Assembly: GCA_030144725.1 (NCBI GenBank)
Contig: JASKMD010000021.1
Span: 2,377,768-2,441,767 of the forward strand
DNA length: 64,000 nt
Origin: Haematococcus lacustris
Taxonomy: Eukaryota > Chlorophyta > Chlorophyceae > Chlamydomonadales > Haematococcaceae
Direction: 5' to 3'
Part shown: positions 11,761 through 57,861 of the stretch, one piece after another
How positions within the stretch are numbered: position 1 is the stretch's first letter
Layout: every line of letters starts with the position of its first letter
Notes under the pieces: model-generated
What the model saw: only the letters and a program-made list of their open reading frames with translations
What the model was told of the DNA's origin: nothing
The model's database searches: none
Position numbers and translations under genes: made by a program

Positions 11761-11775
11761 GACTGACCGACTGTC

Positions 11776-12868
11776 GGCACCTCCCTGGAGGCCCACCTGA
11801 AGCACATCACCGTCACCCTGGCCACCTGGGATGTGGTGTGGGAGGTGTACCTGGACCCCAAGTGGGCACGGCAGCGGCTGAGGCTGTACGGAGCCCAGGA
11901 CCGGGCGCTGGAGCAGTTCTTCAACAAGGTGAGGGTGGGTGGGTGGGTAGGTGGGAGGGAGGGAGGGTAAGGGACTGAGAGGTGGTGGGCATGAAGTGAA
12001 AGAGTACTTGATTGTGCCATGCCTAACCTGGTGCCACCATGTCAGCCACCATGTGTGTGCCTTGTGTGCATGGCTGCAGTTGGAGGAGGACATGGCTGAA
12101 TTGTCCATGAAGCGACATGGGCATGCCAAGCAGCTGGTGGTGTTCTTTGGTGCAGCTACCATTGGCACTGGGGGTGGTTGGGGTGCTGATGCGGTGTTGC
12201 GGGCCTGCCGCAAGGTGGTGTGCAGGCCCAGGGGCAAAGACCAGGATGGGGGCAGGGTAGTGCTTGTCGATGAGCACCGCACCTGCCGGGTCAGCTCAGC
12301 AGTGAATGGCAAGCAGCCCTGTGAGGTGGAGCTGAACACACTCAGTGCCACAAGACCTGCAGGTTGGAAGCCCCCAGCAGGGCAGGTGGAAGAGCGCCTG
12401 GTGCGCCCAGCCTGGAGCCAGGAGCGTGGCCAGCCAGTGCGGGGCCTGGTGTGGTGCCCTGTAGTGGCCCCCCCCAGGCCCCCACAGGCCCCACGCAGCG
12501 GCCAGGCAGCCACACAGCCAGCAGCCTCAGAGCCAGGGCCCAGCACACCCCAGCCAGCCAAGCGCAGCAAGCGCACCAAGGCTGAGCCAGGGGCAGCTGA
12601 GCCCACCAAGGGCAAGGACAAGGGCAAGGCTGCCAAAGCCAAGCCAGCCCCACAGCCAGGCAGGTGGCTGGACAGGGACTGCAATGCAGCATTGAACATG
12701 CAGCGCATTGGGGAGAGCAGGTGGCGGCCGCTGGAGCTGTGCTACTGGCCAGACCAGGGAGCCCTGCCAGCCAAGGGCAAGGAGTACCCTGGCCTGGGCT
12801 ACAAGCGGCTGCGAGACAAGCCCCCCAAGGCCCAGGAGCAGCAGCAGCAGCCTGCTGAGGCACAGTAA
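11776..12868 (+). pseudogene. Fanzor nuclease, C-terminal fragment
   Basis: The fragment comprises the tail of the penultimate exon (11776-11928), a GT-AG intron (11929-12079) and the last exon (12080-12868). It retains the second RuvC acidic motif (VDEHRT) and the third (LDRDCNAALN). It has lost the first RuvC aspartate and the whole N-terminal RNA-binding half. Against the full copy at 51034 it differs at scattered codons (for example HRTC for HRTS and CNAALN for CNVALN). It cannot encode an active nuclease alone, but its 3' region could still be transcribed. Confidence 0.85.
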
Positions 12869-13134
12869 TGTGTGCCCCCCCCACTTTGAGCTGTCATCAG
12901 CTTACAATTAGTGCATGTTTTGTCATGCCAACTCTACATCATAGCCCTCGGGTCAGGCAATAGTGTAGGTGGTAGGCGGGCTCATGTGCCATGTGCACTG
13001 GGTTTACTCCACACAGCCCAATAACACTGTTTGAGCCGGATCTAGTTAGTGGCTACTAGTGGTTGCTAGTGGCTGCTAGTAGGTACTTCTGGTCCGGCTC
13101 AAATGGAGGCCCTAGTGAGGGACAAGGGGGCTGA
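12869..13134 (+). ncRNA. Fanzor 3' conserved segment, putative omega RNA, copy A
   Basis: This non-coding segment directly follows the stop codon and recurs with each Fanzor copy. Near its end GAGCCGGATC (from 13035) pairs with GGTCCGGCTC (to 13109), 9 of 10 positions, followed by AAATGGAGGCCCTAGTGAGG and the element terminus. Known Fanzor and TnpB guide RNAs come from this position. That this one is made is inference. Confidence 0.45.
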
Positions 13135-13255
13135 CCGACTGTCCCTCAAGTCAAGTCAAAGAGTCAAAGACTTGTGGTATGCATAGTGGACGGCAGCAGG
13201 TCTGGGAGGTGGTGTACTGCAGTGAACATGGTCATGGCCCACTCTACGCTGCTCT

Positions 13256-13455
13256 AGGTCATGCCAACTCTAGGCTGTAGCCCTGTGACAGGGGTCAGGT
13301 AGTAGTGTAGGTGGTAGGCGCCGTGCCATGTGCATATGCCATGTGCATGGGAACATAACTCCACACAGCCCCATAACATTATCCTGAGTGGTCCCACTAG
13401 TGGTCCCCAGTGGTCCCTAGCGATACGGCTCGAATGGAGGCCCTGGTGAGCATAC
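13256..13455 (+). repeat. Diverged second Fanzor 3' segment
   Basis: An older, clearly related copy of the preceding segment begins CATGCCAACTCTA and ends CTCGAATGGAGGCCCTGGTG, with several indels. It has no coding part next to it. It shows that the family's 3' end has been inserting here over a long time. Confidence 0.7.
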
Positions 13456-14638
13456 AAGGGAGATTGGCTCAGTGCCCAGCATTGCTTTCTGGCCACATCC
13501 CTGAAGCGTGAGCCTTGTGTGCCTCGCATGGTGAAGGTACCAATGGTGCAGGGTGTCAAGGCCCTGTTTGAGCAGCCCTGCAAGTTTACCGTGCATCAGA
13601 GCCAAGTCTGGCACGTATAGGGCTGGGTTGGCTGGTGGGATGCCTTGGGATGCCTGGCTGGACTGAGCAGCTGTGGCAGGGGCTGTGGCAGGGGCAGGGG
13701 CTGTGGCAGGGACAGGGGCAGGTGAGCAGGGGGAGTGAGCATGGTGGTGCTGCATGCCGGCTGTAATCTGGCAACTCAGATGATCCGCATTAGCTACGGC
13801 AACTCAGATGAGTGGTGTGCAGCAACCAGCCCATGCCTGAAGAAGTGTGACCGCTGTCATGGGGAAGAAAGGCGGCCAAGGAAACACGCGGAAGGAGGGC
13901 GTGATGCCATGAGGTTGCTCAATCAACAACCTTGCCAGCTTGCAACCAGCCAGCTTGGCAGTTTTACTTCCCTCTGGCGCAAGCTTGCCATCAGCTCAAC
14001 CAGCCTCCTTCGTGCCAATGGGTCCTGCCCAAACTCCTCTATTACGCCACCCGCTGCTGCCACTGCCGTCTCCCTAGAGGCCACAGCTGTGAGCTGTGGC
14101 AGCTGCAGCTGCAGGGCGGCAGCAGCCAGTGCCTCGTTGAGGATGGCTTCGGCGCATGTGCCGGCAGCAACTCCCTGTGCTGATACGCACAAGTGCTAAA
14201 CAAGCCTGAAACCCTGCTGGGTACCCATTTTGAGGCCCATCCAGCAGATGCAACACTGCCTTGCACGCGCAGTTGGAGGGGGCTCTATCCAAGGCAACAC
14301 AACGCCTCCTCTTTCCTTTGCGTGCGAGTGAGGCAGGGCACGTGGGTAGGTCTTTGTGAGCGCGCCTTTTACCCTCGAGCCGTCATTATCCACCTCACCC
14401 CTACCCTGGGCTACATGTCAGAGGCTTGTGGCTATCGCAGAGGTTAGGTCGTAGACAAAGATACATCTTCAAATAACCACCGGGGTTTCAGCCTACCGCC
14501 TGCGTACAGCGTAGTGTATGTACACAACAAGAAAGATGCAAGCTGGGTGCCTTCGTAAAAGGTAAAGGAATAACGAGTGGCCACAAAAAGGTCGTGAGCG
14601 ATACATTGGGCCGCACTTCCTGTGCCACTACATACAAA
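13456..14638. other. Spacer upstream of typA; one possible minus-strand exon
   Basis: Most of this holds nothing I can name. A minus-strand frame at 13923-14192 reads as a plausible alpha-helical segment (AILNEALAAAALQL, RRRLVELMASLRQRE). It follows an AG acceptor-like site and could be an isolated exon of an unrecognised gene. Low support. The typA promoter should lie at the right end. Confidence 0.3.
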
Positions 14639-16850: not shown

Positions 16851-16894
<44 letters not shown>

Positions 16895-24128: not shown

Positions 24129-24330
24129 AGGAACCAACAGGAGCGACGGGTTATCTCACAGCGCGTAACTCACGTCTAGGGCTCACGTCACGGCTGGGGA
24201 CACGAACCTTTATGTTTCTTGTCGCTACCCTTCCGCTTCTTCTTAGCCATCACGCGATGCGCAGTGCGACGGGCGGTGGCCTTTTCTAGCAATTTGGGTT
24301 TCCCGTGAAAAATACACGATTGTGTGAAAG
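24129..24330 (-). pseudogene. Fanzor 5' fragment (exon 1 and part of intron 1)
   Basis: The minus strand contains the Fanzor leader, the complete 43-base first exon (24208-24250, MAKKKRKGSDKKHK, a lysine-rich nuclear-localisation-like start) and about 80 bases of intron 1. Nothing of the later exons follows. The same piece recurs, cut short by the LINE, at 41660-41831 and with its continuation at 50960-51154. Confidence 0.8.
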
Positions 24331-24660
24331 CTCCTGACCCTGCCATGCACCCAATCTGGTCAGATGCCTCCTCCCCAACTGCCACCATACTCTTAGCACA
24401 GATGCAGCCCAATGGCGCTGCAGCTTTCTGTGGTGCATACTGGAATAAGGTCAAACAGTGCTGGCTGGTGGGTGATGTTGAAGCCACCACGCCCTCCTCT
24501 TGCTCCACACATGGCAAGCCTGCTTCCTTGTGGCTACTAGAGCCAGCCTCATGTACCTGGCTCAAGTAACACACAATGGTCGCACATTTCACCTCGGTTG
24601 CTTCCAGCGTGAAGAGCATGCTGCCAAGGTGGTTGCATTCATGGTCACACTATTGCACAC
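24331..24660 (+). pseudogene. AP2-like half-domain fragment
   Basis: The segment encodes DPAMHPIWSDASSPTA, then FCGAYWNKVKQCWLVG. After a frame break it gives HLGCFQREEHAAKVVA, which resembles the YLGxFxxEEEAAxAYD core of AP2/ERF DNA-binding domains. Related pieces lie at 49440-49740 and 50393-50842. The frame is interrupted, so this is a decayed exon or mobile-gene fragment. Confidence 0.5.
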
Positions 24661-24670
24661 AGCACTATGA

Positions 24671-24937
24671 CAGCCCCCTTGTCCCTCAATAGGGCCTCCA
24701 TTTGAGCTGGATCAGTAGTACCCACTAGCAGCCACTAGCGGGATTATACTAGTGGGCAATAGTGACCCGACTCAAATAGTGTTATTGGGCTGTGTGGAGT
24801 ATACCCAGTGCACATGGCACATGAGCCGCCTACCACCTACATTACTGCCTGACCCGTTAGGGCTATTGTGTAGAGTTGGCATGACAAACATGCACTAAGT
24901 GTAAGCTGATGACAGCTCAAAGTGGGGGGGGCACACT
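24671..24937 (-). repeat. Fanzor 3' segment, minus-strand copy E
   Basis: The reverse complement matches the 3' non-coding segment of the full Fanzor element, from just after the stop codon to the GACAAGGGGGCTG terminus. No coding sequence is attached. The terminal hairpin arms read GAGTCGGGTCA and TGATCCAGCTC. The LTR element inserted 28 bases away. Confidence 0.8.
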
Positions 24938-24979
24938 CAGGCGTTCCCAACATGGGGTTGGTAATTGTTACGTGATGAT

Positions 24980-25746
24980 GGGCCTATCCGCGAACTGACG
25001 AGAAAAGTTTTCAAATTTTTCGCCTCAACCGCTACGCTTTTTGGCCGCCCGCACGACTGGCTGCAGCTCTCACTGGTCTGACCCCGAAGTATTCTGTTGT
25101 GCTGTAGCAGCAGCCCGGGGAATGGTTCAGCGCTGCAAATGGTCGAAGTTTAGGGGCCTCACTCGGCAGAGATAACTTTCAAATTTTCTCCTTTTTCTCG
25201 GCCTGGTTTCCCCCGCCGAGAAAAAGGAGTAAATTGAAAATAATCTCTTTCACACACACGGTCACGTGGCCGACCTTTGCGCGCCGTAATAGCCCAGGAG
25301 GGCCTGCTGGGGGAGACAAATGCCCTGGCAGTGGCACCCCTCATAGCTAGAGGGATACAGCCCACGTAGCTGCCGCCGGAGGAAATGCGCCTCCTCAAAT
25401 GGCGGTGCCCGCAAACTCGTGCTGCAGCATGTTGTTGAGGAGCAGCTCAGGCCTCATAGCCCTCATAGCGAATGGTCACCGCGATGTGTGCATGCCCCGC
25501 AGCGCCTCAAATATGAATATGACCATTATGCTTCGGCCCTAATCGCGGTCGCACTTTTTGGCCGCCCGCCTCACTGACTGGAGTTTTCGGGCTTGTGAGC
25601 GCGCATCGCTATTGCGTAGTAACTCGTTTGCCCTTCGCGCTGCTACAGAGCGAGGAAGGACGCCACTCCGAGGCGGTTGGCGCAACCACTACCGAACTAG
25701 AAAATCAAAGAAAATTTGAATTACGAGCCCGTTCGCGGATAGGCCC
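24980..25746. mobile_element. 767-bp DNA transposon in the copy 1 LTR
   Basis: It has perfect 16-bp terminal inverted repeats, GGGCCTATCCGCGAAC at the left and its reverse complement at the right. GAT flanks both sides (24977-24979, 25747-25749), and the empty site is visible in copy 2. It has no transposase frame. It contains a 15-bp perfect hairpin (25188-25202 with 25215-25229) and two copies of CTTTTTGGCCGCCCGC-like sequence. It is non-autonomous and its superfamily is not clear. Confidence 0.9.
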
Positions 25747-26240
25747 GATGTAATGCTGAGGCAATATTCGTAACGCCCCTATGAGAAGTGTGACGTGGTG
25801 CGGTGATCTGAGGCCGGGTTCGATTCCCGGGCAGACTTCCTGACAACGCCCAGTCTGTCATGGAGAACTCTGTCACCGTCACCGGACGTCTCGCAACAGT
25901 TGGTTTCCGACCCATGTTCTGAGTCCGACTGGATCTATTTGCCACGTATCTGCCTGAGGATGAGCGGCAGAGGACGTTCTGGTTGGCGTGTAAGACGCGC
26001 TTGAGTCGGAGCTGGCTGTAGTGCGCCAGTTGTGGAATTGTCGCGAAGCGACGGCTGTGTGTGGGCTCTGAGATGAGCGAAGAGGCTAGAGAGCCTGGAA
26101 ACCAATGGCTAGTGAGCCTTTGTGCGGTACAACCAGTCGGCGGAGGTTGATTCTGCGAGAGCGGTGATGGAGGTGACAGTAGTCGTGATGGCCCAATCGG
26201 CTGCGAAGAAGTTGCGTGACCCAGGAGCGCGAGAGGCCTA

Positions 26241-41643: not shown

Positions 41644-41659
41644 AAAAAAAAAAAAAAAA

Positions 41660-41831
41660 CAGCGCGTAACTCACGTCTAGGGCTCACGTCACGGCTGGGG
41701 ACACGAACCTTTATGTTTCTTGTCGCTACCCTTCCGCTTCTTCTTAGCCATCACGCGATGCGCAGTGCGACGGGCGGTGGCCTTTTCTAGCAATTTGGGT
41801 TTCCCGTGAAAAATACACGATTGTGTGAAAG
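41660..41831 (-). pseudogene. Fanzor 5' fragment, duplicated copy
   Basis: Same as 24159-24330: exon 1 at 41709-41751 on the minus strand and part of intron 1, cut at the LINE poly(A) junction. Confidence 0.8.
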
Positions 41832-42161
41832 CTCCTGACCCTGCCATGCACCCAATCTGGTCAGATGCCTCCTCCCCAACTGCCACCATACTCTTAGCAC
41901 AGATGCAGCCCAATGGCGCTGCAGCTTTCTGTGGTGCATACTGGAATAAGGTCAAACAGTGCTGGCTGGTGGGTGATGTTGAAGCCACCACGCCCTCCTC
42001 TTGCTCCACACATGGCAAGCCTGCTTCCTTGTGGCTACTAGAGCCAGCCTCATGTACCTGGCTCAAGTAACACACAATGGTCGCACATTTCACCTCGGTT
42101 GCTTCCAGCGTGAAGAGCATGCTGCCAAGGTGGTTGCATTCATGGTCACACTATTGCACAC
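41832..42161 (+). pseudogene. AP2-like half-domain fragment, duplicated copy
   Basis: Identical in content to 24331-24660, including CGAYWNKVKQCWLVG and the shifted HLGCFQREEHAAKVVA. Confidence 0.5.
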
Positions 42162-42171
42162 AGCACTATGA

Positions 42172-42438
42172 CAGCCCCCTTGTCCCTCAATAGGGCCTCC
42201 ATTTGAGCTGGATCAGTAGTACCCACTAGCAGCCACTAGCGGGATTATACTAGTGGGCAATAGTGACCCGACTCAAATAGTGTTATTGGGCTGTGTGGAG
42301 TATACCCAGTGCACATGGCACATGAGCCGCCTACCACCTACATTACTGCCTGACCCGTTAGGGCTATTGTGTAGAGTTGGCATGACAAACATGCACTAAG
42401 TGTAAGCTGATGACAGCTCAAAGTGGGGGGGGCACACT
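42172..42438 (-). repeat. Fanzor 3' segment, duplicated copy
   Basis: Same as 24671-24937: reverse-oriented 3' non-coding end of a Fanzor element without coding sequence. Confidence 0.8.
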
Positions 42439-42466
42439 CAGGCGTTCCCAACATGGGGTTGGTAAT

Positions 42467-42629
42467 TGTTACGTGATGATGTAATGCTGAGGCAATATTC
42501 GTAACGCCCCTATGAGAAGTGTGACGTGGTGCGGTGATCTGAGGCCGGGTTCGATTCCCGGGCAGACTTCCTGACAACGCCCAGTCTGTCATGGAGAACT
42601 CTGTCACCGTCACCGGACGTCTCGCAACA
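42467..42629 (+). repeat. 5' LTR of copy 2
   Basis: This 163-base LTR contains a perfect RNA polymerase III B-box-like element, GGTTCGATTCC (42548-42558), inside a T-arm-like hairpin (CCGGG TTCGATT CCCGG). GAAGT (42516-42520) and ACTTC (42566-42570) are complementary and enclose it. Confidence 0.95.
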
Positions 42630-42971
42630 GTTGGTTTCCGACCCATGTTCTGAGTCCGACTGGATCTATTTGCCACGTATCTGCCTGAGGATGAGCGGCA
42701 GAGGACGTTCTGGTTGGCGTGTAAGACGCGCTTGAGTCGGAGCTGGCTGTAGTGCGCCAGTTGTGGAATTGTCGCGAAGCGACGGCTGTGTGTGGGCTCT
42801 GAGATGAGCGAAGAGGCTAGAGAGCCTGGAAACCAATGGCTAGTGAGCCTTTGTGCGGTACAACCAGTCGGCGGAGGTTGATTCTGCGAGAGCGGTGATG
42901 GAGGTGACAGTAGTCGTGATGGCCCAATCGGCTGCGAAGAAGTTGCGTGACCCAGGAGCGCGAGAGGCCTA

Positions 42972-45900
42972 GTGGTGTTACAATTGTCGTTTGCGCCGAC
43001 TTGGCTTGGGAGAAGCGATTCTGTGCCTATGTTTGAAGCCAGATTGGCTATGGCTATGGGTGCACCACTGCACGCTGCTGAGGTACAGCCTGGAAGGCTG
43101 CAGCTGCCTTTTCTGTTTGAGGGCCGGCTAGGTAACAAGCCGTGCAGAGCCATGCTTGACACAGGTGCCATTTGCACCATAATCAGCAAGGAGTGGTTGG
43201 AAAGACATGAACGCAATGTTAACCCTGCTGCACTGCAAAGGAAGATCATGATGGAACCCCTGAGAGTGCTGACCGCAACCAATCAGCCTGTGGTAATCAC
43301 TGAACGTCGTTGTGGGCTGCTGGAGGTGCAAAAAAGCAAGACGACTTGCAATGCAGTGGTCATGCCAGGAATGCTCAAAGGTGTCGACCTGATCCTAGGT
43401 GTCGATTGGATGCACGAGCACGATGCAGTGCTGAAGGTTAAGCACGGGGTGTGCACGCTGTTTGAGGCACTCGGAGAGTCGGGGAAGCCTGTCAACTTGT
43501 TCGCACTGCAACCAAAGCACCTGCCTGGGTTTGCGGCTGTGGCTGCTATGAAAGAGCAATGGGAAAGCGCCGAAATTAAGCTGCTCAGTCCGGGCCAGGT
43601 CGTGCGACAACTGCGGAAAGGTTGCAGCAGCTGGCTGATGCTAGTGAAGCCTGGCGATGCTGGCGACCGGCAGGGCTGGCACCAGGGCAGCTTGGCAGCT
43701 GTAGTGGCTGGATGCAGTGAGCAGAACACGAAGGCTGAGCAGGACCCCGAGCTGGTGCCACAAGCTGTGCTAGATGGGTTGCTATCTGAGTATGCTGATG
43801 TGTTTGGGGACATGCCACCGGGGTTGCCCCCTGACAGGCCAGTGGGGCACACAATCAGGACACCACCCGGGGCTGAAGCTCCCTACAAACGTATGTACAA
43901 GCTAAGCCCCAGAGAGGAGGCTGAAGTGAAGAAGCAGGTGGCTGAGCTGCTGGCCAAAGGGTTGATTGAGCCAAGCAGCAGCCCATACGGGGCACCAATC
44001 CTGTTTGTGCAAAAGAAAGATGGGAGCCTGAGAATGTGTATTGATTACCGCGCCCTCAACAAGCTAACAGTGAGGGACAGGTACCCCCTGCCCAGGATTG
44101 ATGACCTATTTGACAAGCTGGCTGGCAAAAGGGTGTTTAGCTCCCTAGACCTGCAGTCTGGGTACCACCAGATCAGGATTACAGAGGAGGATGTGCCTAA
44201 GACTGCCTTCTTGACGCCAATGGGCCAGTTCCAGTTCAAGGTGCTCTGTTTTGGGCTGACCAACGCCCCTGCTACGTTCCAACGGATGATGAATAACGTG
44301 TTCAAGCCTTTGATCAATGAGTGTGTGCTGGTGTACATTGATGACATTCTGGTGATGAGCAATACCCCTGAAGAGCATGTGCAGCACCTGAGGCAAGTCC
44401 TGCAGCTCATGCGAGAAAACAAATTCTACGCCAAACTGGCAAAGTGCGAGTTCAACAAGACGCAGCTGGCGTTCTTAGGCCACATCGTGGCAGCAAAGGG
44501 ATTGCTGTCGACCCTGCGAAAGTGCAAGTCGTGAAAGAATGGCCGACGCCGCGCAACTTAAAAGACCTGCAGGCCTTCCTGGGGCTGGCAAACTACTTCA
44601 GGCGGTTCATACCCAACTTCAGCTCTCTGGCTGCGCCGTTGACGAATCTGACCAGCAAGCAAGTGGCTGCTGTGTATGACTGGGAACACTTTGGGGGTAG
44701 CGAGCTAGAAGCATTCGATGGCCTTAAAGAGGCGCTATGCTCTGCTCCTGTGCTGGCTCTGCCTGACTTCAGCAAGCCTTTTGTAGTGTGCACCGATGCG
44801 TCGCTAGTAGGCACCGGTGGGGTGCTGATGCAAGATGGCAGGCCAATTGCTTACACAAGTAAAAAGATGTCCCCAGCTGAGACGCGCTATGCCACTGGAG
44901 AGCAGGAGCTGCTGGGTATAATCAGAGCAGTCAGAGAGTGGAGGTGCTATTTGGATGGAGCGGTTGATGTTACAATCCTGACTGATCACAATCCCCTCAT
45001 CTACCTGCAAACACAGCCCAATCTGTCGAGGCGGCAGGTCAGATGGATGGAAGAGTTATCACGCTACAAGTATGAGATCAAATACATACCCGGTGCAACT
45101 AATGTGGCTGACCCTATCAGCCGTAATCCCGCTCTGGCCAATGAGGTGGCGCTTACATGCTCATCATCACCACACAATGTTGACTCTGAAGACGCCATGA
45201 CTGTGATCATGACGCTAAGCTCCCGGGCTGAAGGGCTGATCTACGCCATCACTACACGCCGCACTGCTGCCCGGCTGCGAGAGAGTGCTGAGCTGGGGCA
45301 GGTGGCTGCCCGGGAGGCTGCCCAAAGAGCAGGCCAATTGGCCCCACCTGATGATTTGGCTGCTGCCCATACGCCTGGCCAGGCAAGAATGACAAGTGCA
45401 CATCAAAAGGGGGCGCAGCCAGGTGGGGGGGAAGCCCTGCGGCAGCAACAACAAACAACAGAGTCACAAAACAAATCAAACAAACAAGGTGGTGACGAGC
45501 AGTCCACAACTGAGTCGGGTCCCTTAACCCTAATGCAGGCAATCAAACAAGCCTATGCGGCTGACACACGCTTTGCTGATGAGGCCTTCACATCGCAGCT
45601 GTACCAGCATGAGGGGCTGTGGCTGACTGAGTGGGGCAGAGTGGTGGTTCCTGATGACGCTGCGCTGCGGAAGAAAGTGATATACACCATGCATGACACC
45701 AGGTCTGCTGGTCACCTGGGTATGACGAAGACCCTAGAGCAGGTGACGCGCTGGTTTACATGGCCCGGTGTTTCAGAGAATGTGAAGAGCTACGTGCGCA
45801 GCTGCCACTCGTGCCAAGTGAACAAGTCAAGTGCCAAGAAGCCTGCTGGCCTGCTGCAGCCGCTGCCCATACCTGAGAGACCGTGGGACAGCGTATCAAT

Positions 45901-47062
45901 GGACCTCATAGTGAAGCTACCTGCAAGTGGGCCCAACAAGTATGACTCAATACTAGTGTTTGTGGACAGACTAACAAAGATGGTACACCTGGTGAAGACT
46001 TGGGAGAGCATGACTGCCACACAGTATGCAAAGCTGTTCCTTGAGCATGTGTTCCGGCTGCATGGGATGCCGAGGAGTGTGGTCAGTGACAGAGGACCCC
46101 AGTTCCACAACAAGTTCTGGGCTGAGGTGACCAAGCTGCTCCAGGTCCAGGTGAACCTATCCAGCGCCTACCACCCTGAAACAGATGGCCAAACAGAGCG
46201 TGTTAACCGGGTAATCGAAGAAATGCTAAGGCACTTCATCAGGCCTGACCAGCGGGACTGGGCGGAGTACTTACCTCTGGTGGAGTTCGCCATCAACAAT
46301 GCCTGGCAGGAGTCGGTCCGCAGTACGCCCTTCTACCTGAATTATGGCTATCATCCGCGGCTGGCTGAGCTGCTCGACCTGCCACAGAAGGTGCCGCAGG
46401 CGCATGGTTTTGTGAAGGGCATGAAGACAGCGGTTGAGCAGGCGAGGCAGTGCCTAGCGCGGGCGCAGAAGCGCATGAAGTCATATCAGGATAACAAACG
46501 GCGTGAAGTACTTTACCTGCCTGGTGACATGGTGCTGCTGAGCACACAGAACATGAGGGGTAAGGCTAACCAGCCTGGAGTCCGTAAGCTGAAGCCTCGC
46601 TATGTTGGTCCATTCAGTGTGCAGTACATGGTGGGCAAGGCAGCGGTGAAGCTGTGGCTGCCAGATGAGTGGTCTCGACTCCACAACGTGTTTCATGTGT
46701 CCTTGGTGAAGCCCTATCGCACAGATGCTTCAGAGGCAGTGCCTGGGCTGGCTGGACCACCTCCTGTGCAGTGGCTAGATGGAGAGCCCCAATACACAGT
46801 GGAGAAGGTGGTGGGCCACAGGCTGGAGCCCAGCAAAGGCAAGCGCAAGGGCAAGAGTAAGAAGAGACGGCTTGAGTTCCTGGTCAAGTGGCAAGGACAC
46901 GGTGACGAGCATGACACATGGGAGTTGAGCACACAGCTGGTGGGCTGCCAAGAGCTGATGGCCAGGTACATGGCAGAGCACAACCTGGGTGCCGAGGCTG
47001 AGGAGGCGGCTGATGGCGAGGCTGAAGCTCAGGATGATGTTGAGGCTGAGGCCCAGGCCTGA
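42972..47062 (+). CDS. Pol polyprotein: protease, RT, RNase H, integrase, chromodomain, with a -1 frameshift
   Basis: The zero frame 42972-44534 carries the aspartic protease (AMLDTGAICTI) and reverse transcriptase (CIDYRALN, SLDLQSGYHQI, and YIDDILV near 44334), then stops. At AAAGGGA (44495-44501) a -1 shift continues precisely through the conserved LGHIVAAKG-IAVDPAKV junction. The second frame then reads to TGA at 47060. It gives RNase H (FVVCTDAS, ELLGI, LTDHNPL) and integrase with an H2C2 finger (HLGM to CHSC). The DD35E triad is SMDLI near 45900, SDRG near 46085 and the E of DGQTERVNR near 46195. A C-terminal chromodomain (PQYTVEKVVGHR, FLVKWQGHGDEHDTWE) targets integration. The fused product would be about 1363 aa; its true N-terminus is unclear because gag is missing. 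Confidence 0.9.
44495..44501 (+). promoter_or_regulatory. Candidate -1 ribosomal frameshift heptamer AAAGGGA
   Basis: In the zero frame it reads A AAG GGA, a canonical X XXY YYZ slippery site. Slipping back one base joins the two conserved halves with no residue lost or gained. The same heptamer is in copy 1 (29054-29060). The alternative is an inherited one-base deletion. Confidence 0.5.
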
Positions 47063-47173
47063 TGGTAGTGACATGGACGGAACTCAGACACCAAGCGCTA
47101 GTGTGGGCGCGAGTGATGGCACAATGTGCCTGAGCGGGGCAACACCACGGTGGTCAGCTGAGGACAGCTGAGC

Positions 47174-47187
47174 CAGGTGGGGGGGAA
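47174..47187 (+). promoter_or_regulatory. Polypurine tract
   Basis: The purine-rich run AGGTGGGGGGGAA lies directly before the 3' LTR and would prime plus-strand DNA synthesis. Confidence 0.75.
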
Positions 47188-47350
47188 TGTTACGTGATGA
47201 TGTAATGCTGAGGCAATATTCGTAACGCCCCTATGAGAAGTGTGACGTGGTGCGGTGATCTGAGGCCGGGTTCGATTCCCGGGCAGACTTCCTGACAACG
47301 CCCAGTCTGTCATGGAGAACTCTGTCACCGTCACCGGACGTCTCGCAACA
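47188..47350 (+). repeat. 3' LTR of copy 2
   Basis: Identical by eye to the 5' LTR over all 163 bases, which implies very recent insertion or gene conversion. Confidence 0.95.
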
Positions 47351-48750: not shown

Positions 48751-48820
48751 TAGTAAGCAACTTGGGTTTCCCGTGAAAATACACGGTTGTGTGACGCTAC
48801 ATTCGTCGGCTTGTGACGCT

Positions 48821-49363
48821 ACATCTCAGGGCCCTGGTCGGACAACCCATGACAGCCCATGCAGACAAAGGGTGTGGTGCGGCATGTGAGATGCAGGTCC
48901 ATGCCCTGATGGCCATCAAATGCCGTGGCATGCGCACTCCCTTAAACTTTGTGCCTGAGACCTACAATGGCATGTACAAGCTGCTGGCACAAGTGGACCA
49001 GGTAAGCTGTTTCATGACCCCAGTGCTGTTCTGTCTGGCAACTGGCTGATTTGTGGGTCATGTCATGTTGGATATGCTGTGTAGGTTACACATAACAGCA
49101 CTGTGAGGCATTGCTTACTCTGTTCATGCTGTTTGTTGCAGGCGCTGTTGATTGAGCTGCTGAAGGCCTTCAGCCGCATCAGGAACAAACTCCGGGCTGA
49201 GTCAAGCAGGCAGAGGATGACTTGGAAGGCAACCCTTGGAGCATCTGACCTACCCATGCGCGCAGACTGTGAAGATGCCGCTTCCACTGCCACTGCACGC
49301 CCAGACCAGCCAAGTCATCCACTGACACCCCACTCAGATGCTGATTGTGGCATGGCCGGTTAG
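48821..49363 (+). pseudogene. AP2-like gene fragment, two exons
   Basis: Exon 48821-49001 encodes HADKGCGAACEMQVHALMAI, KCRGMRTPLNFVPETYNGMY and LLAQVDQ, resembling the end of an AP2 domain (AIKLRG...LNFP...Y), and ends at a GTAAGC donor. An exon from 49142, after TTGCAG, continues LLIELLKAFSRIRNKLRAES. The paralogous exon pair at 50393-50842 has the same structure. Confidence 0.5.
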
Positions 49364-49439: not shown

Positions 49440-49770
49440 GAACAGCCAGAAGGCAGGAGTGATACAACACAATGATGCTGGAGGTCTTTGCGGGGCAGCC
49501 TGGAGCAAGGTCCGACAGTGTTGGCAGGTGGGTGGTGTTGAAGCCACCACGCCTCCTCTTGCTCTCACCCTCCAAGTCTGCTTCCTTGCAGCTGCCAGAG
49601 CTAGTCTAATGTAACAGCATGTCACTGCTCTTGCCATGCAGGCTTACATATGTATCCATGGTCGCAATAGTTACCTCGGTAGCTTCCAGCATGAAGAGCA
49701 TGCTGCCAAGGTGATTGCAGTGTTTGTCACACTATCCCATACCATCCCAGTCCTCTATCCCGACTATGCC
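49440..49770 (+). pseudogene. AP2-like N-half fragment
   Basis: The sequence encodes GLCGAAWSKVRQCWQVGGVE and, after an apparent intron or frame break near 49615, YICIHGRNSYLGSFQHEEHA, AKVIAVF, the first half of an AP2-type domain. Its continuation was separated from 50393 by the Fanzor insertion at 49786-50377. Confidence 0.5.
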
Positions 49771-50392
49771 GTCCTGTGCCAGCCCCCTTGTCCCTCACTA
49801 GGGCCTCCATTTGAGCCGGATCAGTAGTACCCACTAGCAGCCACTAGCGGGATTATACTAGTGGGCAATAGTGACCCGACTCAAACAGTGTTATTGGGCT
49901 GTGTTGAGTACACCCAGTGCACATGGCACATGAGCCGCCTACCACCTACATTACTGCCTGACCCGCTAGGGATATTGTGTAGAGTTGGCATGACAAACAT
50001 GCACTAAGTGTAAGCTGATGACAGCTCAAGATAGGGGGCACACATTACTGTGCCTCAGCAGGCTGCTGCTCCTGGGCCTTGGGTGGCTTGTCTCGCAGAC
50101 GCTTGTACCCGAGGCCAGGGTACTCCTTGCCCTTGGCTGGCAGAGCTCCCTGCTCTGGCCAGAAGCACAGCTCCAGTGGGCACCACCTGCTCTCCCCAGT
50201 GCACTGCATGTTCAATGCTGCATTGCAGTCCCTGTCCAGCCATCTGCCTGGCTGTGGTGCTGGCTTGGCTTTGGCAGCCTTGCCCTTGGCCTTGCTGCGC
50301 TTGGCTGGCGGGGGAGTGCTGGGCCCAGGCTCTGAGGCTGCTGCCGGTGTGGCTTCCTGGCTGCTGCGTCCTGCTGCGTCCTGTGCCAGCCC
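49771..50392 (-). mobile_element. Fanzor element copy D, 5'-truncated, 15-bp target duplication
   Basis: A minus-strand insert contains the 3' non-coding segment (from the AGCCCCCTTGTCCC terminus at 49781) and the tail of the last Fanzor exon up to about 50377. The perfect repeat GTCCTGTGCCAGCCC flanks it at 49771-49785 and 50378-50392. It splits an AP2-like gene. Its 5' end is inside the last exon. Confidence 0.85.
50045..50377 (-). pseudogene. Fanzor C-terminal fragment, copy D
   Basis: About 110 codons retain the third RuvC motif (LDRDCNAALNMQ) and the conserved tail (GKEYPGLGYKRLRDKPPKAQ). The linker is shorter than in copies A and B. Confidence 0.85.
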
Positions 50393-50842
50393 ATGCAGAC
50401 AAAGGGTGTGGTGGAGCATGTGAGACGCAGGTTTATGACCTGGTGGCCATTAAGCTTCGTGGCATGCACACTCCCTTGAACTTTGTGCCGGAGACTTACA
50501 ATGACATACAGAAGCTGTCAGCACAAGTTGACCAGGTGAGGTGCTGCAGGCCTGCAGGTGCACTGCAATGCATCGTGGTGCAATGCCTGTTGAGCGTGCT
50601 GCCGCCTGCAGGCAATGCTGATTCAGTTTATACGGGCCTGCGCCCGCAACAACAAGAAGGTGCTGGCTGAGGCAGGCAGGCAGCAAGGGAGTGCCATCCA
50701 GGAGGCAGTCCTGGCAGCTCCTGACCCTGCCATGCACCCAGTCTGGTCAGATGCCTCCTCCCCAACCGCCGCCTTACTCCTACGCCAGGCAGGTCAGTCA
50801 CGGGCACCGCCCTCTGCTTGCGAGTCCTCCATTGAGGCTCTT
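50393..50842 (+). pseudogene. AP2-like gene fragment between two Fanzor insertions
   Basis: Exon to 50535 encodes HADKGCGGACETQVYDLVAI, KLRGMHTPLNFVPETYND and KLSAQVDQ, then a GTGAGG donor. The exon from 50612 (after CTGCAG) encodes MLIQFIRACARNNKKVLAEA and DPAMHPVWSDASSPTAALLL. Fanzor copy D lies on its left and full-length element B on its right, so this host or mobile gene was hit twice. Confidence 0.5.
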
Positions 50843-51033
50843 GGCTGGCCGTGTGATGCCCTCTGGACCACTGCCTCAATGCCTAGCCAAGGCCTAGCTG
50901 ACATTCGCTGTGGGTGTTGCGCACAACCAAGGCTGTAACAGAGCACTTGTGTATTTTCACACAATCGTGTATTTTTCACGGGAAACCCAAATTGCTAGAA
51001 AAGGCCACCGCCCGTCGCACTGCGCATCGCGTG

Positions 51034-54000
51034 ATGGCTAAGAAGAAGCGGAAGGGTAGCGACAAGAAACATAAAGGTTCGTGTCCCCAACCGTGACGTG
51101 AGCCCTAGACGTGAGTTACGCGCTGTGAGATAACCCGTCGCTCCTGTTGGTTCCATCGCAGTGTCTCGTTCCGCCCAAGGCAAGCAACGACAGGATCGTC
51201 GAGATGGCTGGACCACCCGTCGACGTCAGGTGTGGGTCCGCCTTATGTGTCCCCGCACTGTTTGTGTTGACCCCGCCTTGTGTCTTGGCCTGTCAAAATG
51301 GCAACCTCGGTTGGCTGCAGGTCATCAAGGTCCCCGAGGGCGCAGTGCTGCGCGGCTGCAAGAAGACGAGGCGCAAGCTGAGGGAGCACCTCCGGCTGCG
51401 GGCTGAAATCCACTCCCAGCTCCGCTTCATCGCTTCCTTGCTTGTATTGCGCATCTTTCTCACCTACCTGGTGGGCTACCCTACCCAGGGCTTCCCCAGC
51501 GCCCCTCAGCCTCCAGCCGTGCAGCCCCCCCAACCCCCTGATGCTCCCCCCCTACCCCCACTCCCCCCACGGGCCCCTGCCCAGCCTGCCCAGCCTGCCA
51601 GCATGGAGTGTGACACCGACTCTGACTCCGAGTCAGACTGTGGCTCAGAGCCAGAGCCACAGTCTGACTCGGAGTCAGAGTCAGAGTCAGAACCTGAGCC
51701 AGTCGCGCAACCCCCCCAAAGGCGCTGCAGCGCCCGCCTGGCAGCCCTTGCACCCGCAGCACCCACTGGCCCTCCCTTGCCCCTTGACTGCGAGGACCCT
51801 GTCATGTTGAGGCAGCTCAAGGACTTCTGCAAGTTCTTCGCCAACCCCAACTACAAGACATGCTACAACCAGCTGCAGCGGCACCATGTGCGCAACCGCC
51901 ACCCCATGCTCATGCCAGCCTTTGAGGACCCCAGCAACCAGGCGCTGCTGGCCAAGCTGCAGGAGCTGGGCAGCATCTACCTGGCGGGTGACGCCAACAC
52001 CATCGACGCACACTCCATGCAGCTGGCGGTGGCCATGCAGCAGCACTACTCCAACCCAGGCAAGTAATGGTGGTGACTAGACCCTAGACTTGGACCTGAC
52101 CTTATACCTGACCTGACCTGACCTGACCTGACCTGACCTGACCTGACCTGACCTGACCTGACCTGACCTGACCTGACCTGACCTGACCTGACCTGACCTG
52201 ACCTGACCTGACCTGACCTGACCTGACCTGACCTGACCTGACCTGACCTGACCTGACCTGACCTGACCTGACCTGACCTGACCTGACCTGACCTGACCTG
52301 ACCTGACCTGACCTGACCTGACCTGACCTGACCTGACCTGACCTGACCTGACCTGACCTGACCTGACCTGACCTGACCTGACCTGACCTGACCTGACCTG
52401 ACCTGACCTGACCTGACCTGACCTGACCTGACCTGACCTGACCTGACCTGACCTGACCTGACCTGACCTGACCTGACCTGACCTGACCTGACCTGACCTG
52501 ACCTGACCTGACCTGACCTGACCTGACCTGACCTGACCTGACCTGACCTGACCTGACCTGACCTGACCTGACCTGACCTGACCTGACCTGACCTGACCTG
52601 ACCTGACCTGACCTGACCTGACCTGACCTGACCTGACCTGACCTGACCTGACCTGACCTGACCTGACCTGACCTGACCTGACCTGACCTGACCTGACCTG
52701 ACCTGACCTGACCTGACCTGACCTGACCTGACCTGACCTGACCTGACCTGACCTGACCTGACCTGACCTGACCTGACCTGACCTGACCTGACCTGACCTG
52801 ACCTGACCTGACCTGACCTGACCTGGCCTGGCCTGACCTGACCTGACCTGACCTGACCTGCAGAGCGCATTGTCAAGCTGTACGCCAAGGCAGCTTGGGC
52901 CCAGCTAGGCTGGAGCGGGGAGGAGGCGCAGCTGTTCATCAGGATGGCGTGTGGGTATGGCATCAACGCCCACAGCTCGGAGCTGAAGGCCGCCACCCTG
53001 GACAAGGGCCATGTGGCGGACCTGATAGAGGAGGCCAACAAGTACCGCCGCCTACTGGGCATGAAGAAGGAAGGCTCCCTGCAGGACACCCTGCCCCTGC
53101 CCTGCCGCATGCGCCATGCAGTGCATGTGTGCCGGTGGCTGGAGCGGTGGCAGCAACCCCACACCCCCCCTGTGCCAGGGCAGCCAAAGCGCGGCAAGAG
53201 GCGTGGGGTTGGTCCCCGGACCCTGACCTGCCCACCCCCCTTCACCCTCACCCCCATGGCCAGGGTGGGGGTGCACTTCATCAAGGTGGACAGCAGGGTG
53301 CTGCATGGGGTGTGCAGGCAGCTGGGCCTGACCATGGAAACCCGGGAAGCTTTCACCTCAGAGCCAGCACTGAGCCATCACTGGGCCAGGTGGTTCAACA
53401 CCAACAAGCTTCGCAACAAGGAGTTTCGTTTCGAGAGGTTGGTGGACACTGATGGTGTCAGCGTGTGCGTGCACTACACGCGCCCCCTTCCCCCTCCTCC
53501 AGCCCCACCTCCAGCTGCCAGCAGCACCAGCAGCACCAGCAGCCGCCCAAGTGCAGCAGCAGCAGCGGCCCATGCGGTGGGGCTCCCCCACATAGGCAGG
53601 GGCATAGCTGAGATGCGTGAGTTTGTGTTTGACCCAGACACACAGATTGGGGTGGGCATCGACCCCGGCGTCACCCAGGCAGTCAGCGCAGCCTCTGGGG
53701 TGTGGGATCCAGCAACAGGCCAGCTCAAGGCAGACCAGCTGCGCCGGTGGAAGCTGACCAAGGGCGAAGTGAAGCATGCCAGCGGCCTGAACAATGCCCG
53801 CCGTGATACAGAGCGGTGGCTAGCACCGATAAAGCCCCACCTCCAGCACCTGGCAGCAGCAAGCTCAGCCGGCACCTCCCTGGAGGCCAACCTGAAGCAC
53901 ATTACCGTCACCCTGGCCACCTGGGATGCGGTGTGGGAGGTGTACCTGGACCCCAAGTGGGCACGGCAGCAGCTGAGGCTGTACGGAGCCCAGGACCGGG

Positions 54001-54974
54001 CGTTGGAGCAGTTCTTCAACAAGGTGAGGGTGGGTGGGTGGGTGGGTGGGTGGGTAGGTGGGAGGGAGGGAGGGTAAGGGACTGAGAGGTGGTGGGTTGG
54101 GCACGAAACGAAAGAGTACTTGACTGTGCCATGCCTAACATGGTGCCACCATGTCAGCCACCATGTGTGTGCCTTGTGTGCATGGCTGCAGTTGGAGGAG
54201 GGCATGGCGGAGTTGTCCATGAAGCGACATGGGCATGCCAAGCAGCTGGTGGTGTTCTTTGGTGCAGCTACCATTGGCACTGGGGGTGGGTGGGGTGCTG
54301 ATGCGGTGTTGCGGGCCTGCCGCAAGGTGGTGTGCAGGCCCAGGGGCAAAGACCAGGATGGGGGCAGGGTGGTGCTTGTCGATGAGCACCGCACCAGCCG
54401 GGTCAGCTCAGCAGTGAATGGCAAGAAGCCCTGTGAGGTGGAGCTGAACACACTCAGTGCCACAAGACCCGCAGGCTGGAAGCCACCAGCAGGGCAGGTG
54501 GAAGAGCGCCTGGTGCGCCCAGCCTGGAGCCAGGAGCGTGGACAGCCAGTGCGGGGCCTGGTGTGGTGCCCGGTAGTGGCCCCCCGCAGGCCCCGACAGG
54601 CCCCACGCAGCGGCCAGGCAGCCACACAGCCAGCAGCCTCAGAGCCAGGGCCCAGCACACCCCAGCCAGCCAAGCGCAGCAAGCGCACCAAGGCTGAGCC
54701 AGGGGCAGCTGAGCCCACCAAGGGCAAGGCCAAGGGCAAGGCTGCCAAAGCCAAGCCAGCCCCACAGCCAGGCAGGTGGCTGGACAGGGACTGCAATGTA
54801 GCATTGAACATGCAGCGCATTGGGGAGAGCAGGTGGCGCCCACTGGAGCTGTGCTTCTGGCCAGAGCAGGGAGCTCTGCCAGCCAAGGGCAAGGAGTACC
54901 CTGGCCTGGGCTACAAGCGGCTGCGAGACAAGCCCCCCAAGGCCCAGGAGCAGCAGCCTGCTGAGGCACAGTAA
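51034..54974 (+). CDS. Fanzor RNA-guided nuclease (TnpB-like), five exons
   Basis: Exons 51034-51076, 51162-51229, 51321-52059, 52864-54023 and 54192-54974 join in phase to 930 aa. It starts with a Lys-rich nuclear-localisation-like leader (MAKKKRKGSDKKHK), then a basic helix and a Pro-rich/acidic Ser-Asp-Glu linker. The RuvC motifs are D550 in VGIDPGVTQAV, E735 in VLVDEHRTS and D870 in LDRDCNVALN. Family blocks lie between them: LTKGEVKHASG, VYLDPKWARQQLRLYGAQDR and LVVFFGAATIG. Fanzors are eukaryotic relatives of TnpB that cut DNA guided by an RNA encoded at their own 3' end. The usual Cys pair after the second motif is replaced (RVSSAVNGKKPC), so the zinc finger looks altered. Intron 3 has a GC donor. 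I see no stop or frameshift, so it may be active. Confidence 0.88.
52106..52860. repeat. (ACCTG)151 pentanucleotide array filling Fanzor intron 3
   Basis: Some 755 bases of ACCTG repeats, with two adjacent GCCTG variants near 52825, make up almost the whole 804-base intron (52060-52863). The array ends directly at the CAG acceptor. Each unit boundary gives CTGAC, a match to the branch-point consensus. Confidence 0.97.
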
Positions 54975-55236
54975 TGTGTGCCCCCCCCACTTTGAGCTGT
55001 CATCAGCTTACAATTAGTGCATGTTTTGTCATGCCAACTCTACATCATAGCCCTCGGGTCAGGCAATAGTGTAGGTGGTAGGCGGGCTCATGTGCCATGT
55101 GCACTGGGTTTACTCCACACAGCCCAATAACACTGTTTGAGCCGGATCTAGTTAGTGGCTGCTAGTGGTTGCTAGTGGCTGCTAGTAGGTACTTCACTAG
55201 GGGCTCAAATGGAGGCCCTAGTGAGGGACAAGGGGG
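54975..55236 (+). ncRNA. Putative Fanzor omega RNA region, copy B
   Basis: The 262 bases between the Fanzor stop and the element terminus recur in all family copies. GAGCC near 55139 pairs with GGCTC near 55202 to close a terminal hairpin, shortened here by a change in the 3' arm. AAATGGAGGCCCTAGTGAGG and GACAAGGGGG then reach the end, and the target-site sequence follows where a guide would lie. Function is inferred from position in known Fanzor/TnpB loci. Confidence 0.45.
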
Positions 55237-55251
55237 CTGGCCGTGTGATGC

Positions 55252-56242
55252 AGGACCATTGTGTGTTACCATTGTGCGGTGTGGGTGAGGGGTGTCATGA
55301 GGGTGTGCGGTGTGAGGGGTGTCATGAGTGTGCATGGGTTGCGCTGTCTTCAGCTCTGTATACAAGAGGCTGTGGACTGTCTGAGGCAGCAGCCTCTCTG
55401 CCTCCAGGCAAACGCCCCAGACTATCCGCCATGGCCTTGATTGGCAGTGCCCCTCTCGGCAGCAGTGTGCAAGGGACGTCCACTGGGCGCTGCCCCTCAG
55501 CTGTAGCTGCCTGTGCTGACATTACAGCTAGCAACACCAATGCACTAGGGTTGACACTGCCAGCAGCACCTCAGCTGGTGGGCGCGCCTGGTGTCAGCCT
55601 TGGCGTGGACAAGGGCAGGGCCAGACCAGCAGGCAGTGCTTGGGCGGAGGCAGATGAGCTCTGGGAGCAGGTTGAGCAGGTCCATGAGGGAGGAGGTGGC
55701 GAGGGTGAGGCCATGCTGCCCAGCAGCAGCCACGATGCTCCTGAGCAAGACAGTGACGCCCAGGAGAACAACCAGGGTAGCAGGTTGCTCCCGGATGCTG
55801 GCAGCAATGCCTGGTGCGCTGACAGCAGTGCATGGGGACCAAAACGGGTCGAAGCAGACGAGGCTGGGCATGCACCGGGCGGTCAATACACAAGAGCAGT
55901 AGAGGAGGGAGGGGAGGAGGAGGCAGGGGAGGGGTAGGCGGCTATGAAGCCTGCAAGCTGGTCGCCATCAAGCCAGGCTACCAGGCAGCTGGCCGCGTCC
56001 AGCTTCAGGCAGAGGCTCCAGCTATTGCTGTCTCAACAGCGCAGCCCTGCACCGTCTGTGTGTGATGCCTCTGCTGCAGCCAGCCAGTGTTCAGTGCATT
56101 GACACTGACAAGGGTATGGCACAGCAGTCAGTGAGGGTGAAGCACAGGTGGTGGCTGGCGAGACCAGCTGGCCCTGTGCAGCCTGGCCCTCAGGGGTGCC
56201 TGTGGAGGGCTGGCAGCCTGCTGGAGCTGCAGGGGCTGGACC
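55252..56242 (+). other. Possible coding flank of the AP2-like locus
   Basis: A plus-strand frame from about 55330 to 55937 reads as low-complexity but plausibly coding (CGLSEAAASLPPGKRPRLSA, SAWAEADELWEQVEQVHEGG, ending in an acidic Glu/Gly run). It may be the continuation of the gene interrupted by element B. Near 55950 YEACKLVAIKPGYQAAG faintly resembles the AP2 C-half seen nearby. I cannot name a product. Confidence 0.3.
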
Positions 56243-56427
56243 CTACCTGGCAGCCGTACCTAGCATGAGAACGAGGTCAGCAAGCGGGTGCTGCGTGCTC
56301 ACTGCGGCAAGGGCACCACCTAGAAGCAGTCATGCCTGTATGGTCGTGTTCACAGCTTAGGTCCACTCCCGGGGGCGGGGCGGGCCCCACCAGGAAAGCT
56401 GTCATAACACCTTGTTCAAATCACACT
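56243..56427 (+). repeat. Dispersed repeat shared with 11561-11760
   Basis: Homologous to the sequence left of Fanzor copy A. Here it is preceded by GTGCCTGTGGAGGGCTGGCA, which also begins Fanzor copy C (57086), so these segments have been shuffled together. Confidence 0.75.
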
Positions 56428-57067
56428 GTCCGTCTCAAATTTTTTCCTGTCCATTTTTTTTATTTTACTGTTGTACCTTGTTCTTATTTCACTCAGTCCC
56501 ACCATTCCTTTCAGCGTCCCAGCGTCCCAGCGTCCCAGCGTCCCCTAACCCTGTCTGGAGCCCCGGCAGTGGGGCAGGCGGGCGGTTGGGCAGGCGGGCG
56601 GGCGGGCGGGCGGGCGGGACAGCAGGCACTAGGGGTGCATGTTCAGAGCTGGGGAGCCTGCCTGGGGTGCACCAACCCCCTGATGCTCCCCCCCTACCCC
56701 CGCTCCCCCCACGGGCCCCTGCCCAGCCAGCACCTGCCCAGCCTGCCAGCATGGAGTCCTGCCTGGGGAGCCTGCCTGGGGTGCAGGGGTGCCCCCCTAA
56801 TATCCAAGTATGTATAAGGGTAATGTATCTACATGTACATAGTCTCTCACCTCCTTACCGCCACCCAGTTGCTGCCTTTCGTTACCCTTGGTAGGCTGTT
56901 ACAGAGGCCAGTTGGGCAGCAGCTGACACCAGGCTTGCCTAGGCCAGCTAGGTGGCCACGATGTATTCTAGCCGTGGTCTATTTTTGCCCTCAACTAAGG
57001 ACTCAAAATATAGTGCATATAACCCTATTTGTCCTGGCATGCAAACCAATGCAAATGATTGACAATA
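56428..57067. other. Spacer with GGGC repeats and a Fanzor exon 3-like piece
   Basis: It holds four GCGTCCCA repeats (about 56514-56545) and a GGCGGGCGG run (about 56578-56620). About 90 bases near 56668-56755 match the Pro-rich linker of Fanzor exon 3 (CCCCTGATGCTCCCCCCCTA, read PDAPPLPPLPPRAPAQP). No intact gene. Confidence 0.5.
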
Positions 57068-57270
57068 GGGCTGTAAGGTCTTGGGGTGCCTGTGGAGGGC
57101 TGGCAGCCTGCTGGAGCTGCAGGGGCTGGACCACTGCCTCGGCGCCGTGGGTGTTGCGTACGACCAAGGCTGTAACAGAGCACTAGTGTATTTTCACACA
57201 ATCGTGTATTTTTCACGGGAAACCCAAATTGCTAGAAAAGGCCACCGCCCGTCGCACTGCGCATCGCGTG

Positions 57271-57583
57271 ATGGCTAAGAAGAAGCGGAAGGGTAGCGAC
57301 AAGAAACATAAAGGTTCGTGTCCCCAGCCGTGACGTGAGCCCTAGACGTGAGTTACGCGCTGTGAGATAGCCAGGCAGGTGGCTGGACAGGGACTGCAAT
57401 GCAGCATTGAACATGCAGCGCATTGGGGAGAGCAGGTGGCGCCCACTGGAGCTGTGCTACTGGCCAGACCAGGGAGCTCTGCCAGCCAAGGGCAAGGAGT
57501 ACCCTGGCCTGGGCTACAAGCGGCTGCGAGACAAGCCCCCCAAGGCCCAGGAGCAGCAGCAGCAGCCTGCTGTGGCACAGTAA
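57271..57583 (+). pseudogene. Fanzor gene remnant in copy C
   Basis: Exon 1 (MAKKKRKGSDKKHK) and the tail of the last exon (GRWLDRDCNAALNMQ to the stop at 57581-57583) are joined by an internal deletion. D550, E735 and the zinc-finger region are missing. No active nuclease can be made, but the terminal RNA region is intact. Confidence 0.85.
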
Positions 57584-57848
57584 TGTGGTGCCCCCCCCCT
57601 TTTGAGCTGTCATCAGCTTACACTTAGTGCATGTTTTGTCATGCCAATTCTACATCATAGCCCTCGGGTCAGGCAATAGTGTAGGTGGTGGGCGGGCTCA
57701 TGTGCCATGTGCACTGGGTTTACTCCACACAGCCCAATAACACTGTTTGAGCCGGATCTAGTTAGTGGGTGCTAGTGGCTGATAGTGGCTGCTAGTAGGT
57801 ACTTCTGATCCGGCTCAAATGGAAGCCCTAGTGAGGGACAAGGGGGCT
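57584..57848 (+). ncRNA. Putative Fanzor omega RNA region, copy C
   Basis: Same segment as in copies A and B. Here the terminal hairpin arms GAGCCGGATC and GATCCGGCTC are perfectly complementary over ten bases. Confidence 0.45.
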
Positions 57849-57861
57849 GTAAGGTCTTGGG

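Follow-up and report, generated by a model that had tools for sequence, protein, structure and literature searches.

How an element that carries the gene of a probable Fanzor, a protein related to CRISPR nucleases, could come to be present in copies that end at the same base, begin at different ones and lie between direct repeats is the question raised by a 64,000 nt stretch of Haematococcus lacustris DNA (contig JASKMD010000021.1, GenBank assembly GCA_030144725.1, positions 2,377,768 to 2,441,767), referred to here as the window. Four copies (A to D) had been recognized in an initial annotation and attributed to target-primed reverse transcription, perhaps by the enzyme of a long interspersed nuclear element (LINE). 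Our reading, to which we give a probability of roughly 0.6, is that the element belongs to a non-autonomous, Fanzor1-bearing family resembling the CRe elements of Chlamydomonas reinhardtii, and that it is mobilized as DNA, in a one-ended manner that starts from its hairpin-bearing 3' end. The fixed 3' terminus, the variable 5' ends, the CTG at the five recent 3' junctions, the introns that are kept, the 3' hairpin, an internal deletion in one copy and sequence lying 5' of the likely terminus all support it. All counts of copies, controls and comparisons with LINEs or Helitrons refer to the 64-kb window.

A common 3' end, CTG and flanking repeats

Copies were located by self-comparison of the window, and their 5' starts are expressed in the coordinates of copy B (Table 1). 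The 3' part is common to all copies and the 5' extent differs. Copy A starts at ~53870 in exon 4, the penultimate exon of the Fanzor gene, copy D at ~54605 in exon 5, the last, and copy E at ~54976; copy C consists of ~230 bp of the 5' part (~50906-51135 in B) fused to the last 480 bp (54766 onward). Copies A and B are 97.5 % identical. The shared 3' terminus, the differing 5' extents and the exons in which A and D begin were thus as first described, as was the internal deletion in C, and A to D are real. However, the 3' ends E and F, the old copy G, which sits just downstream of copy A, and two separate 5' pieces (E' and F') had been missed. As F is an exact duplicate of E in a duplicated block, A to F represent five events, not six. 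Close to its 5' end, copy C has a 50-bp stretch (57083-57132) that is identical to 56193-56242, ~840 bp upstream, and is possibly filler from template switching.

When the six 3' ends of A to F were aligned, they had one terminus, GACAAGGGGG, followed directly by CTG, and diverged beyond it. The earlier statement that every 3' junction reads CTG therefore applies to A to F but not to old copy G, where CTG is absent. Copies A, B, C and D are flanked by exact direct repeats of 13, 17, 18 and 16 bp, respectively; the lengths given before for A, B and C stand, but in D one more base matches than the 15 reported. Counted from CTG, the repeats are 13, 15, 15 and 13 bp long. Because the bases before CTG can come from the terminal G run of the element itself, these lengths are less variable than the totals (13–18 bp), and the variable long duplications of the initial annotation are variable largely in their totals. 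CTG also lies in register within the 5' repeat of all four repeat-flanked copies, which would not be required were it merely the end of the element, and most plausibly it is something that the target must contain or a point of pairing.

In the whole 64 kb, each of the stretches that follow CTG (10 bp in A, 12 in B, 12 in C and 10 in D) is present at two places only, the two junctions. Among 10,000 pairs of positions spaced like the copies, taken only from 7-24 kb and 35.5-47 kb, four showed matches of at least 10 bp and none of at least 12 bp. A cruder control using 4,000 pairs of 40-bp stretches, which covered nearly the whole of the repeat-rich window with tandem repeats included, gave four pairs with at least 11 bp, three with at least 15 bp and two with at least 17 bp. 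When the flanks of A, B, C and D were joined, no paralogue that runs across any junction was found within the window. A match of the 5' flank of A to 56242-56428 was rejected as proof of an empty site, since it ends at the junction, and the match of the 5' flank of D to 48850-49023 begins only inside the repeat.

The ~260 bp 3' region present in A to F is foldable and contains a subterminal hairpin, for which the folding energy z-scores are -6.2 in A and C, -3.3 in B (where the fold is rearranged), -2.9 in D and -2.0 in E. When hairpin pairs were counted, 90 % of the cells were paired, compared with 27–44 % when the pairing was slid. Rfam, at gathering scores, gave no match within the element. 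Fanzors are described as RNA-guided nucleases with the guide RNA at the right end of the element (PMC10432273, PMC10711439), and we infer that the 3' end may also encode the guide RNA of this Fanzor.

Copies E and D occupy almost the same position, each next to host DNA that is related between the two (24401-24669 and 49461-49770). The two are 95.4 % identical in the element versus 81.4 % in the flank (Fisher p ~5e-7), and as the element is more alike than its flank, separate insertions or conversion are indicated rather than one old insertion. The shared location possibly reflects a preferred site or conversion. By eye, the repeated host unit had appeared to be an AP2-like gene, but Pfam gave no support for this.

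Table 1. Coordinates of the element copies, their parts and the LINE in the window
Feature	Position	Strand	Remarks
Copy A	11763..13143	+	5'-truncated in exon 4, intron 4 kept; repeats 11763-11775 / 13131-13143
Copy B	50843..55251	+	all five exons; repeats 50843-50859 / 55235-55251
Copy C	57068..57861	+	internal deletion; repeats 57068-57085 / 57844-57861
Copy D	49770..50392	-	5'-truncated in exon 5; repeats 49770-49785 / 50377-50392
Copy E	24671..24936	-	3' terminal region only; flanking repeat not found
Copy F	42172..42437	-	duplicate of E, within duplicated block
Copy G	13255..13466 (approximate)	+	old 5'-truncated 3' end, 80–83 % identical to other copies
B exon 1	51034..51076	+	start MAKKKRKG, nuclear-localization-like by eye
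B exon 2	51162..51229	+	
B exon 3	51321..52059	+	GC-AG intron follows
B exon 4	52864..54023	+	TDG and DPG (RuvC-I) signatures
B exon 5	54192..54974	+	shifted glutamate, degenerate zinc knuckles, RD, stop
B 3' terminal region	54975..55236	+	common to A-F; candidate transposition end and putative guide-RNA scaffold
E'	24130..24329	-	isolated first 200 bp of element, 99.5 % identical to B
F'	41659..41830	-	duplicate of E', cut off at LINE junction
5'-end relative, ~40 bp	48756..48794	-	92.5 % identity
LINE	31626..41658		matches to endonuclease and reverse transcriptase; zf-RVT below curated cut-off; poly(A) end

The 5' end, the gene of copy B and the surroundings

Where the first 200 bp of the element are found in isolation, as E', they start sharply at TTTCACAC, and the ~40-bp relative is a third piece with the same start (at TCACACAA). 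E' begins within one base of TTTCACACAATCG, where the match of a host paralogue (50716-50782) ends, and no similarity was found past its other end. From these comparisons, the common start is most likely the 5' terminus of the element, and isolated pieces of 200 bp and ~40 bp are as expected of a 5' end module common to several families. Copy B, which had been called full length, does include all five exons by the splicing used here but extends 95 bp beyond this likely terminus; copy C extends 106 bp, and the two extensions are partly in common. Alternatively, the true 5' end would be near CTGGACC, as in B and C, and the other pieces would be truncated.

Splicing of the five exons of copy B gives 930 codons with no internal stop, and the gene is apparently intact. 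The third intron, which holds a 10-bp repeat array (~52100-52860), was taken as GC-AG because the frame is kept, the two other donors tried leading to 11 stops each. In the predicted protein of 930 aa, the TDG (a WED-domain motif) and DPG (RuvC-I) Fanzor signatures of PMC10711439 are at residues 479 and 550. Among the further signatures, which were drawn from PMC10711439 and section 6 of PMC3627910, a shifted glutamate (E735) is found six residues before the first zinc-knuckle position, and TS is at 738-739 (TC in copy A), with 187 residues lying between D550 and T738 (signature range 125–275). The C4 zinc finger is not present in B, as the first knuckle residue is S and cysteines 751, 796, 871 and 891 do not include two CxxC. 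An RD pair (869-870) lies ~70 residues past C796 with a low-complexity stretch between them, whereas the signature places it 5–50 residues after the zinc finger. The degenerate zinc knuckles lower the claim to a canonical Fanzor1. A loose composite of TDG, DPG, shifted glutamate and RD was reached by two of 20,000 shuffles of the residues of the B protein, though it was written after the protein had been seen and is thus a description rather than an independent test. The product had no match in PDB, Pfam or PHROGs, and the three weak NCBIfam matches are all to an acidic low-complexity stretch. A single-sequence structure model of exon 4 alone (predicted local distance difference test score 36.9) was unusable. 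No relatives of exon 4 or exon 5 were found in viral contigs, and a near search of plasmids also yielded none. Judged by its signatures, the product is probably a Fanzor1.

Other features of the window lie around these copies. A block is present twice (24158-31625 and 41659-47066), on either side of the LINE, in pieces of 823, 1311 and 3285 bp that are 99.9–100 % identical, and represents either a duplication of >5 kb that accompanied insertion of the LINE or an artefact of assembly. A 766-bp insertion (24981-25746) with inverted ends GGCCTATCCGCGAAC is present in only one of the two blocks, as is a 1283-bp insertion (27058-28340), whose inverted ends, TCAGGTCCCACAAGGTC, are 17 bp long and whose flanking repeat, CTATCTG, is ~7 bp; in each case the other block has the empty site. 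A Gypsy-type retrotransposon (42467-47350) with identical 163-bp long terminal repeats and a 5-bp flanking repeat, GTAAT, is probably a recent insertion. A tRNA-like gene at 18448-18533 (53.9 bits with Rfam; none with ARAGORN), by eye an intron-bearing tRNA-Gly GCC, appears to lie within an intron of a TypA/BipA GTPase gene (~15193-21033).

Routes by which the element may move

In one-ended movement as DNA, the enzyme would be supplied from elsewhere, with a Helitron2-type RepHel as the leading candidate, and would attach the hairpin-bearing 3' end at a CTG in the target. One strand would then be copied or transferred toward the 5' end; an early stop would give a truncated copy, and a late one would let the copy run on into the adjoining sequence, which is how B and C would have arisen. 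Joining of the free end to a second nick ~13–15 bp away, presumably part of a staggered break, followed by fill-in would produce the direct repeats.

Several observations weigh against this account. A flanking repeat was looked for at E/F and at G and none was found (for F, with the adjoining Gypsy element left out, there was no repeat of at least 8 bp within 1.5 kb and one of 7 bp), and repeats are thus present at four of six independent 3' ends. The hairpin is lost in G (z +1.0), and one of its 23 pairs is changed on both sides, as many being reached by 372 of 500 shuffles. At the other end, the fold is no better than that of shuffles (z -0.17), with only short stems seen by eye. Exact runs that would represent asymmetric terminal inverted repeats were looked for by comparing the two candidate 5' ends (three sequences) with the 3' ends of A and C, and none was found, in keeping with the earlier statement that no terminal inverted repeats are visible; the longest exact complementary run was 4–6 bp, reached by 248–500 of 500 shuffles. 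A T-rich tetranucleotide precedes the repeat in only one of four copies (B, TCTT), and RepHel was not found with Pfam in 28 of the 92 listed frames and one piece. In published accounts, Helitrons are without target duplications, and the documented new ends of a bat Helitron form at its 3' side (PMC4778049, PMC5148889). Assignment to Helitron2 is not proven here, and the published mechanism has gaps in this case, as no asymmetric repeats were found, the target is different and the duplications are left unexplained.

In one form of the route proposed initially, a LINE enzyme would recognize the 3' hairpin as the end of an unspliced transcript and copy this transcript into a target that has been nicked. 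Target-primed reverse transcription is typically marked by direct repeats, truncation at the 5' side and a 3' end that does not vary, and the copies show this set, together with microhomology between the 3' end and the target (G run and CTG) and, in C, a 50-bp identity such as template switching can give. It would also deal with duplications that known Helitrons do not make and that the published assignment leaves unexplained. However, intron sequence is kept in each copy that spans an intron, namely all four introns in B, intron 4 in A, where its retention had been noted correctly (151 bp versus 168 bp in B, by coordinates), and the first part of intron 1 in C and E'; none of D, E and G extends as far as an intron. 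The aligned 3' ends of A to F carry neither an A-rich nor a repeat tail, and the LINE in the window, the only one compared with the 3' end of the element, is poly(A)-tailed and has no similarity to the 3' region beyond that of shuffles (local score 19.0, equalled or exceeded in 94 of 200 shuffles). The search for a resident LINE with a common 3' tail thus came out negative for this LINE. Since introns are kept, there is no tail and the LINE does not have a common 3' end, target-primed reverse transcription is not supported, and the evidence argues against LINE mobilization of mRNA. An unspliced RNA is a possible intermediate, and the route as a whole is, in our view, unlikely.

Fragments of element DNA, for example extrachromosomal ones, might instead be captured at staggered breaks by end joining, with no dedicated enzyme and with the excess of 3' ends caused in some other way. 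Though this would fit with 5' ends that vary, with DNA in C that may be filler and with the lack of repeats at E/F and G, a random process would not lead five copies (A to E) to end at precisely the same 3' terminus, or put CTG in register in four of four flanking repeats, and such capture is improbable. Rather little credence is given to the Fanzor as the source of the break: directed by an RNA from the 3' end, the nuclease would make or select the target break, and repair would then copy the element in. The right-end location of Fanzor guide RNAs and the foldable 3' region speak for it, and CTG adjoins the end as a target-adjacent motif might, but the guide RNA is only predicted here, truncated copies that lack the gene would depend on protein from elsewhere, the product of B has degenerate zinc knuckles, and guided cleavage alone leaves both truncation and duplications unexplained. 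Flanking repeats are the norm for cut-and-paste (DDE) transposons, though usually shorter than those seen here, and with neither a constant 5' end nor inverted repeats found, a DDE transposon with degenerate inverted repeats is highly improbable.

A broader possibility is that the family, and by extension the CRe elements, is not Helitron but primed from the 3' end, with a structured 3' end (possibly the guide RNA) joined to CTG via either reverse-transcribed unspliced RNA or a Fanzor-made staggered break. We consider this doubtful; if true, Fanzors would have a new mode of spread. Bao and Jurka (2013, PMC3627910), in their account of one-ended Fanzor elements, left the gain of duplications unexplained. 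The window adds a compact and recent set of copies in which introns are kept, CTG is a candidate target motif and one gene is apparently intact; with such a set, DNA and RNA routes could be separated in one genome. If the host is, as the assembly states, another species, the set would also suggest that this behaviour extends beyond C. reinhardtii.

Comparison with known elements

Retroposons mobilized by LINEs, such as short interspersed nuclear elements and processed pseudogenes, combine 5' truncation with target duplications of the size found here. In contrast, the element described here keeps introns, is without a tail and has no LINE partner seen, and no published proposal of reverse transcription for Fanzor elements was found among the titles and abstract openings listed. 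Helitrons of the Helraiser type (Helitron1) also have a hairpin near the 3' terminus, but they make no target duplications and their documented new ends arise at the 3' side (PMC4778049). With IS91 the element shares one fixed and one variable end (PMC3627910, PMC4778049), though one-ended transposition of IS91 is reported not to be associated with target duplications (PMC3627910).

The closest likeness, which rests on the published description rather than on direct sequence alignment, is to CRe-1, CRe-2 and CRe-3 of C. reinhardtii, Fanzor1 elements that were assigned in 2013 to 'one-ended transposition' of the Helitron2 type (Bao and Jurka, PMC3627910). As described there, CRe elements are often 5'-truncated, can have an internal deletion, keep their 3' ends intact and are flanked by repeats of ~7–19 bp in ~70 % (CRe-1), 57 % (CRe-2) and 10 % (CRe-3) of copies; some have extra upstream sequence, and 200-bp 5' ends are common to them and Helitrons. 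The word 'intron' does not occur in the main text of that paper. The family in the window differs in that its repeats have CTG near their start, whereas those of CRe elements are preceded by TTTT or a T-rich tetranucleotide, and in that neither the asymmetric inverted repeats of Helitron2 (8–15 bp) nor a Helitron partner is known for it. It shares with CRe elements a Fanzor1 gene (of five exons, as is that of CRe-1), copies that are often 5'-truncated or internally deleted but keep the 3' end, and repeats within the same range of length. Both occasionally have additional sequence beyond the 5' terminus, and both have a ~200-bp 5' segment that occurs elsewhere. A subterminal hairpin at the 3' end, a further trait of Helitron2 and CRe-type elements, is also present in the family. 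Hence, it is probably a member of the published CRe type of Fanzor1 element, and the pattern itself is then not new.

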